Positions 4,926 through 5,259 of a stretch of DNA of 21,054 bases are shown here, in pieces. The stretch lies in IMG/VR virus record IMGVR_UViG_3300032322_001871, positions 1-21,054 of that record. The stretch is one strand, 5' to 3'. The position numbers and the translations under genes were made by a program. Numbering within the stretch: the stretch's first letter is position 1; each line of letters begins with the position of its first letter. The notes under the pieces were generated by a model. That model did no database searches, had not been told where the DNA came from, and was given only the letters and a program-made list of their open reading frames with translations. This DNA is from a virus.

Positions 4926-4954
4926 ATTATACCAACAAAAAAGGGGGAAGTCAA
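4926..4954 (-). promoter_or_regulatory. Host-type (early) promoter for the thyX/carbamoyltransferase operon
   Basis: The minus strand has TTGACT (4949-4954), a 17-base spacer, and a perfect TATAAT (4926-4931), i.e. a near-consensus sigma-70 promoter. Transcription would start around 4919-4921, so the leader is only about 15-18 bases and begins at the ribosome-binding site AGGAGGT. The -35 box is formed by the loop and adjoining base of the terminator at 4937-4961. Early transcription by unmodified host RNA polymerase is the likely mode. Confidence 0.85.
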
Positions 4955-4961
4955 TTCCCCC
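4937..4961 (-). terminator. Rho-independent terminator after the DUF4278-like gene
   Basis: On the minus strand GGGGGAA, loop TTGAC, TTCCCCC, then six T: a perfect 7-bp stem, five G:C pairs at its base, followed by a T run. It lies 10 bases after the stop of the 43-residue gene (4971) and ends its transcript. Its loop and T run also serve as the -35 region and spacer of the next promoter. Confidence 0.88.
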
Positions 4962-4970
4962 AAGAACATA

Positions 4971-5102
4971 TTATCCTTTTAGTTGCAATTGTGCTTGCTT
5001 CAAGCGTTCTGCCTTTTCAATTTGATCCTTTAACAGTTGAAGAACATTTAATTTGCGTTCTTCAACTTCATATTTTACGCCACGATATGTTGCAGTAGTC
5101 AT
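4971..5102 (-). CDS. 43-residue DUF4278-like small protein
   Basis: A very short gene translated by hand. It starts MTTATYRGVKYEVEER and continues as a charged helix (LLKDQIEKAERLKQAQLQLKG). The YRGxxY motif near the start is the hallmark of DUF4278, a small domain of unknown function found in cyanobacteria and their phages. Expression signals are complete: AGGAG six bases before the ATG, a consensus promoter at 5231-5259 with a leader of about 120 bases, and a strong terminator 10 bases after the stop, so it is a single-gene transcription unit. Probably an early host-takeover or host-derived accessory protein; function unknown. Confidence 0.82.
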   Translation of the reverse strand: MTTATYRGVKYEVEERKLNVLQLLKDQIEKAERLKQAQLQLKG

Positions 5103-5230
5103 GTGTTTCTCCTGAATGAATGGATTTTTAAGTCCGTTCCTTCAGTCGTTTGCGTTCGCTATTTGCGAATAGCGAATGAACGATCCGTTCCGCGACTTAC
5201 TTGCGTCCCAAAGGGGATGAACGTAGACGC
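5103..5230 (-). promoter_or_regulatory. Structured 5' leader of the DUF4278-like gene
   Basis: About 120 bases between the predicted start site (near 5224) and the ATG at 5102. It contains a perfect 9-bp hairpin (5155-5176, stem TTCGCTATT, loop CGCA), two copies of GGAACGGA (5133-5140 and 5184-5191), a GAACG-GAT-CGTTC inverted repeat around 5177-5190, and further CGTTC/GAACG complementary boxes that could pair over longer distances. Such a long structured leader is out of keeping with the few-base spacing elsewhere. It could be a regulatory leader or the source of a small RNA. I recognise no known riboswitch. Confidence 0.5.
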
Positions 5231-5259
5231 ATTATAACGTCTATACAGTATCTAGTCAA
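5231..5259 (-). promoter_or_regulatory. Host-type promoter for the DUF4278-like gene
   Basis: Minus strand TTGACT (5254-5259), 17-base spacer, perfect TATAAT (5231-5236). The -35 hexamer and spacing are identical to those at 4926-4954 and ahead of psbA. It starts about 20 bases after the stop of the DUF6433-like gene. Expected start site near 5224-5228. Confidence 0.85.

Follow-up and report, generated by a model that had tools for sequence, protein, structure and literature searches.

A variant type-1 glutamine riboswitch of T4-like cyanophages with a nested P3 module, and relatives whose aptamer loops hold genes

The stretch of DNA analysed here, hereafter the window, comprises 21,054 nt (positions 1 to 21,054 of the IMG/VR virus record IMGVR_UViG_3300032322_001871), and its genes and profile matches—thyX, a psbA-like gene, a glutaredoxin, and a Nol-like carbamoyltransferase—mark the source record as a fragment of a T4-like cyanophage. 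On the minus strand, a 122-nt leader lies between a consensus promoter and a 43-codon, DUF4278-like gene (ORF3), with transcription predicted to start near position 5225 (Table 1). An earlier note, made from the sequence alone, had pointed to a structured leader ahead of a 43-residue gene, to a perfect 9-bp hairpin within it, and to a consensus promoter and strong terminator around the unit; all of these are present, and everything reads on the minus strand. The minus-strand fold of the leader, taken with its flanks, is better than 199 of 200 dinucleotide shuffles (z = -3.3), and the plus-strand fold of the same region beats all 200 (z = -4.9).

Table 1. Features of the leader and its gene in the window.
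Feature	Position	Strand	Basis
Sigma-70-like promoter, TTGACT-17-TATAAT	5231..5259	-	11/12 consensus matches
Inverted repeat AGACGT/GCGTCT around the -10 box, 6-bp arms at 5243-5238 and 5229-5224, ending at the aptamer	5224..5243	-	
Aptamer with enlarged P3	5131..5225	-	RF01739
P1 5′ strand CGUUC(1); partner GAACG(2) at 5139-5135	5219..5223	-	Rfam alignment; invariant in 277 relatives
P2 hairpin UCCC-CUUU-GGGA; loop holds ORF1 in 48 relatives	5206..5217	-	
Conserved aptamer core CGCAAGUA	5198..5205	-	Rfam alignment
P3 5′ strand AGUCG; partner CGACU at 5148-5144	5193..5197	-	Covariation
Inner hairpin GAACG(1)-GAU-CGUUC(2)	5178..5190	-	100% paired in relatives, covariation
P2′ hairpin, 9 bp, UUCGCUAUU-CGCA-AAUAGCGAA; loop holds ORF2 in 231/277 relatives	5155..5176	-	
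P3 3′ strand CGACU	5144..5148	-	Covariation
GAAGGAACG, aptamer core plus P1 3′ strand GAACG(2)	5135..5143	-	Rfam alignment
Predicted expression platform, CUGAA (5145-5141) pairing with UUCAG (5116-5112)	5112..5145	-	Folding, covariation
Shine-Dalgarno AGGAG of the 43-codon gene	5109..5113	-	
43-codon gene (ORF3): N-terminal YRG (DUF4278-like) segment, then helix segment like the phrog_545 N-terminus	4971..5102	-	
Intrinsic terminator, GC-hairpin/U-run	4943..4961	-	

Among the relatives described below, the commonest promoter form is TTGAC followed by TATAAT 17 nt on, and CTAAATA/CTATATA motifs are also common upstream. Dyads around the -10 box, with arms of at least 5 bp, occur in 217 of 258 unique upstream regions, as against about 14% in shuffles, and comprise 84 distinct arm sequences; thus, the dyad is kept while its sequence changes. 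It could act at the DNA level or form an RNA hairpin in transcripts of a (late) promoter farther upstream.

Decisive was a covariance-model search (cmscan, Rfam), which returned a single RNA family match across the 21-kb record—RF01739, the glutamine type-1 (glnA) riboswitch, scoring 42.9 bits where the gathering cut-off is 35 (E = 1.7e-6 over the whole window, 4e-10 in a search of its own genome). In the Rfam alignment, the window has the P1/P2/P3 order of that family with conserved CGUUCA, CGNAAGUA, and GAAGGAACG, and its core has CGCAAGUA in place of CGGAAGUA, the consensus in Rfam. Beyond this order, the CGUUCA, CG-AAGUA, and GAAGGAACG core, and a DUF4278-like target gene, all shared with RF01739, the phage RNAs differ in that P3 bears a nested CGUUC/GAACG hairpin module and that whole genes occupy the P2′ and P2 loops in relatives. 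The window element is a variant of a known riboswitch, carrying the empty (ORF-free) form. Type-1 glutamine riboswitches are distributed in cyanobacteria, marine sources, and cyanophages (PMC2864571, PMC6316151), and glutamine is the probable ligand of the phage variant. The type-2 family RF01704 (Downstream-peptide RNA) resembles the element in its CGUUCA-hairpin-CGCA start and precedes short DUF4278-type genes in picocyanobacteria (PMC6316151); membership there was rejected, as the two halves of the window score 27.3 and 20.8 bits against a threshold of 33, and the phage element further differs in its covarying pairings, which we assign to type-1 P3 and P1.

Read from 5′ to 3′, the leader consists of CGUUC(1), P2, CGCAAGUA, AGUCG, the inner hairpin GAACG(1)-GAU-CGUUC(2), P2′ (the 9-bp hairpin of the earlier note), CGCAAA, CGACU, GAAGGAACG(2), and, further on, UUCAGGAG and the start codon. 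Two copies of GGAACGGA (5191-5184 and 5140-5133, minus strand) and two of CGUUCA (beginning at 5223 and 5182) are spaced along it. The GGAACGGA copies had been noticed before, together with the CGUUC/GAACG pairs, and the two observations resolve into a pair of P1-like modules, of which one is enclosed by the other's P3.

Relatives were collected from IMG/VR by a pattern scan, a scan with the 3′ half, and two protein-based scans, yielding several hundred cyanophage loci from which 277 unique nested elements were parsed. These fall into three forms—46 with two plain hairpins as in the window (for example, S-PM2 and S-CREM1), 183 with an ORF in the P2′ loop, and 48 in which P2 and P2′ each hold an ORF, none having an ORF in P2 only—in proportions that mirror how the loci were searched for. 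Isolates with the ORF-bearing arrangement include P-RSM4, S-TIM4, S-SM2, P-SSM7, and S-SM1. The exact nested core pattern was absent from 386 cyanobacterial genomes and thus seems to have been elaborated in phages; glnA switches of the canonical kind, which lack the nested module, are likewise found before YRG proteins (four loci). At gathering thresholds, cmscan found the riboswitch in none of nine ORF2-bearing loci and also missed P-RSM4 and the plain-form S-PM2; it did recover plain or canonical forms.

Several individual loci depart from these forms. One (L020) has a reduced nested element without GAACG(1), and its downstream 33-aa gene has the helix segment and no YRG motif. In some ORF2-bearing leaders (L012, L034, L046, L068, and others), an additional hairpin, ACGGAUCC-hairpin-GAGAAGGUU, separates the aptamer from the Shine-Dalgarno sequence of ORF3. 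In P-TIM40, a manA RNA (RF01745, 141.7 bits, positions 2978-3172 of L003) directly follows the riboswitch unit, ahead of talC, placing two structured leaders consecutively. Outside the phages, double and triple tandem glnA riboswitches were seen in uncultured marine Alphaproteobacteria and SAR86 (L131, L145, L148, L164, and others), with up to 8 glnA matches per genome.

Conservation and covariation in relatives, which the earlier note had named as a check, proved strong across the 277 unique elements. Around ORF2, P2′ is paired in 919 of 924 cells (0 of 1000 shuffles as good), and with one sequence per cluster in 403 of 408, with double changes at three of four positions. P3 shows double changes at three of five positions across all representatives (0 of 1000 shuffles as good); in ORF2-bearing elements, where most P3 sequences are invariant, it takes the forms AGUCG:CGACU, AAUCG:CGAUU, AUUCG:CGAAU, and AGUCA:UGACU (0 of 2000 shuffles). 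The inner hairpin is paired in 690 of 690 cases, and in 15 sequences CAACG:CGUUG replaces GAACG:CGUUC with CGUUC(1) and GAACG(2) unchanged, a substitution that fits nesting and not tandem pairing. For P2, pairing was required by the parser, and pair types rather than the percentage paired count as evidence; P1 never varies, and its assignment comes from conservation and the Rfam model rather than from covariation. The pairings of ORF-bearing forms are retained in forms that lack ORFs.

The same elements could be read as two tandem glutamine aptamers, CGUUC(1):GAACG(1) and CGUUC(2):GAACG(2), under cooperative control as in known tandem glnA riboswitches, which are common (PMC9481103). Both pairs are complementary in sequence, the type-2 scores given above amount to a weak match for each half of the window, and in one relative (L016) the inner half alone just passes as a type-1 match. 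However, the second half lacks the AAGUA core, so two complete serial aptamers are not present; the 15 CAACG/CGUUG variants retain GAACG(1):CGUUC(2) while breaking one pair in each tandem helix; P3 covaries between the halves; and the alternative CGUUC(1):GAACG(1) pairing shows no gain over shuffles. In the window, the tandem fold (-18.8 kcal/mol) is 7 kcal/mol worse than the nested fold (-25.9 kcal/mol; the platform fold reaches -27.7 kcal/mol). We consider a tandem arrangement quite improbable, and compensatory changes in the 277 unique relatives support the nested fold over it—like tandem leaders, the phage leader has two CGUUC/GAACG sets, but these are nested in one aptamer and not serial.

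In 231 of the 277 elements, P2′ is opened by an ORF of 50–66 codons (ORF2). Its reading frame begins at the P2′ 5′ strand and runs into the conserved 3′ half of the aptamer, where it terminates, giving the protein a C-terminus of WDAND, WDAHD, or WDAKAD; a typical element reads CGUUCAUCCC-AUG...UGG-GAC-GCA-AAC-GAC-UGA-AGGAACGG. The stop codon occupies an identical position in 228 of the 231, synonymous changes make up 57% of the differences between codons that involve one base, where 24% would be expected, and the second codon position is the least variable. The proteins (50–66 aa) have a hydrophobic N-terminus and two cysteines, belong to phrog_504, phrog_13397, or no phrog, all function-unknown families, and gave no significant match in a fold comparison (model pLDDT 73, best E 5.9). 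In isolates, they are annotated as hypothetical proteins—‘T4-LIKE GC 430’ in P-RSM4, S-SM2, P-SSM7, S-SSM7, and S-SM1—and are often encoded between nrdB and talC. A GAG loop in the inner hairpin creates a GGAG Shine-Dalgarno sequence 10 nt before the ORF2 start, and is found in 197 of 231 elements with ORF2 versus 1 of 46 without it (79/102 versus 1/38 among cluster representatives; Fisher p = 7e-17). As a check on circularity, we searched with an ORF2 query lacking the C-terminal residues that the riboswitch encodes; in all 69 readable loci, CGUU(C/G) immediately precedes the ATG and RAAGGAACG immediately follows the ORF. The result was the same, and a discovery bias introduced by the riboswitch pattern was rejected.

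A second gene, ORF1 (65–79 codons, mostly phrog_6471), opens P2 in 48 elements, and in most of these its stop codon forms part of the P2 3′ strand, tracking the sequence of the 5′ strand: UCC(A/U/G) occurs with UAGGA, UCUU with UAAGA, and UCUC with UGAGA. The three-gene form is seen in P-RSM4 (PRSM4_205, 206, 207) and S-TIM4 (ORF_197, 198, 199), where ORF1 extends beyond P2 and stops in the core AAGUAA. Its synonymous fraction is 76% against 24% expected, and by codon statistics both embedded ORFs are genes; chance ORFs in the loops were rejected on the synonymous excess, the identical stop position, and family conservation. In several ORF1 forms (L257, L269, L283, and others), ORF1 begins about 9–13 nt after the start of CGUUC(1) and, in a transcript initiated at the -10 box, would have no clear Shine-Dalgarno sequence.

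It might be argued that these ORFs do not lie inside a switch—that an ordinary gene has a separate regulatory element on either side, or that ORF2 is a leader peptide whose translation governs the downstream gene through attenuation or coupling, and that no closed, ligand-bound form exists. ORF2 translation must indeed unfold the 3′ half, and its stop lies in CU(R)AAG of the expression platform, such that a terminating ribosome would itself open the platform helix. P2′ and P3 nevertheless covary across the ORF, the ORF1 stop matches the opposite P2 strand, and the pairings persist in ORF-free forms; moreover, an ORF of 50–66 codons with its own conserved protein family is unlike a leader peptide. 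Either version seems to us improbable beside an aptamer that closes around genes.

The product of the 43-codon gene in the window falls under the Pfam DUF4278 (PF14105) cut-off (14.6 versus 25.3 bits, residues 3–20 only), is related by parts to phrog_5049 (E = 2e-6) and phrog_545 (E = 8e-8), and has few tblastn matches in phages. Its YRG segment comes first and its helix last, the opposite order to other members, as if permuted or recombined. In nearly all relatives, the downstream gene encodes a small protein carrying one YRG motif or two, with scores that reach the DUF4278 cut-off or fall slightly short of it. A model of ORF3, of low confidence (65.9), comprises a helix and two beta hairpins, and a profile search found no solved structural relative. 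In cyanobacteria, both types of glutamine riboswitch have DUF4278 genes as their principal targets, and the N-terminal part of IF17, an inactivating factor of glutamine synthetase, is covered by DUF4278 (PMC6316151); the phage protein may have a role in host nitrogen assimilation.

Between aptamer and gene, the predicted platform helix CUGAA:UUCAG covers the start of the Shine-Dalgarno sequence, is exclusive with P1/P3, and has a probability of 0.995 in the modelled ligand-free ensemble of the window. Its variable pair, formed by the R in CU(R)AAG and the Y in UU(Y)AGG, is A-U in 95 cases, G-C in 93, G-U in 46, and A-C in 0. This variable base is also the middle base of the ORF2 stop (UGA/UAA), and the choice of stop thus follows the strand that sequesters the Shine-Dalgarno sequence. 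Together with the RF01739 match and the YRG/DUF4278-like downstream genes, this covarying helix supports one of two alternatives raised in the earlier note, a leader controlling a DUF4278-like protein. The other, which makes a trans-acting small RNA of the phage the principal product and treats the 43-codon ORF as incidental, would suit the compact promoter-terminator unit and its strong fold; however, the Rfam match is to a cis-regulatory riboswitch, nearly all relatives have the same kind of gene downstream of the covarying helix, and the conserved pieces point to a cis-acting 5′ UTR switch of a coding gene. On the Rfam match and covariation, we rejected the small-RNA reading, which we consider extremely improbable.

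The best-supported mechanism is a translational switch, off by default and opened by glutamine. Without glutamine, CUGAAG at the 3′ end of the aptamer would pair with (C)UUCAG across the Shine-Dalgarno sequence and keep the gene off; glutamine binding would fix P1 (CGUUC(1):GAACG(2)), P2, and P3 (AGUCG:CGACU), thereby consuming CUGAAG and freeing the Shine-Dalgarno sequence. P3 is extended by the nested decoy module, first the hairpin GAACG(1):CGUUC(2) and then P2′. With the aptamer enforced in a nearest-neighbour model of ORF2-bearing elements, the platform probability fell from 0.80 to 0.00, and mean Shine-Dalgarno accessibility was not raised (0.42 to 0.34); the modelling thus does not support the gene-on direction, which is presumed from published switches of the class, in which glutamine binding activates expression in those tested upstream of DUF4278 genes (PMC6316151).

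In the relatives, the aptamer would close around a single gene or a pair of genes, with stop codons that belong to the aptamer's own stems, and this gene-cassette anatomy—start codons in or next to stems, stop codons made of stem nucleotides—is well supported. The 3′ half cannot serve a translating ribosome and a folded aptamer at once; ORF2 translation must therefore compete with ligand-bound folding, and we infer that translation of the embedded ORFs and aptamer folding are mutually exclusive. We hypothesize that ORF1/ORF2 and ORF3 are reciprocally controlled: in this tentative cassette model, which we regard as possible but not yet probable, ORF1 and ORF2 would be translated at low glutamine, and at high glutamine they would be shut and the DUF4278-like ORF3 opened. 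Taken as a whole, a type-1 glutamine riboswitch with a nested P3 module, translational control of the 43-aa protein, and relatives whose aptamer closes around genes is, in our assessment, a highly probable reading of the locus.

The glnA riboswitch of cyanophage S-CREM1 (PMC9964418) is a direct homologue of the two-hairpin form in the window, with the same small downstream gene; it is annotated there as a plain glnA riboswitch, and the section consulted mentions neither the nested module nor ORF-bearing relatives. As far as the searched literature shows, the gene-in-loop architecture is undescribed: we found no literature on ORFs inside riboswitch aptamers, although a mention in the two main primary papers of the class is possible. 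Group I introns offer a parallel, as structured RNAs that host protein genes in peripheral helix loops; the phage element differs in being a metabolite switch that is not self-splicing, in its small secreted-like proteins, and in stop codons that lie in core stems.

Riboswitch aptamers are regarded as non-coding, yet in this widespread group of marine viruses the conserved 3′ half of an aptamer also encodes the C-terminus of a protein and supplies its stop codon, and the aptamer loops accommodate entire genes. The arrangement lets a dual-coding constraint be read directly, as where a compensatory change in P3 converts the protein end from DAND to DANE, and it explains why riboswitch surveys miss such loci. 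The compact, ORF-free form in the window is the easiest for laboratory testing. More broadly, these findings suggest that at least three small phage proteins are coupled to how much glutamine the host contains, which is an important nitrogen signal in nitrogen-poor oceans.
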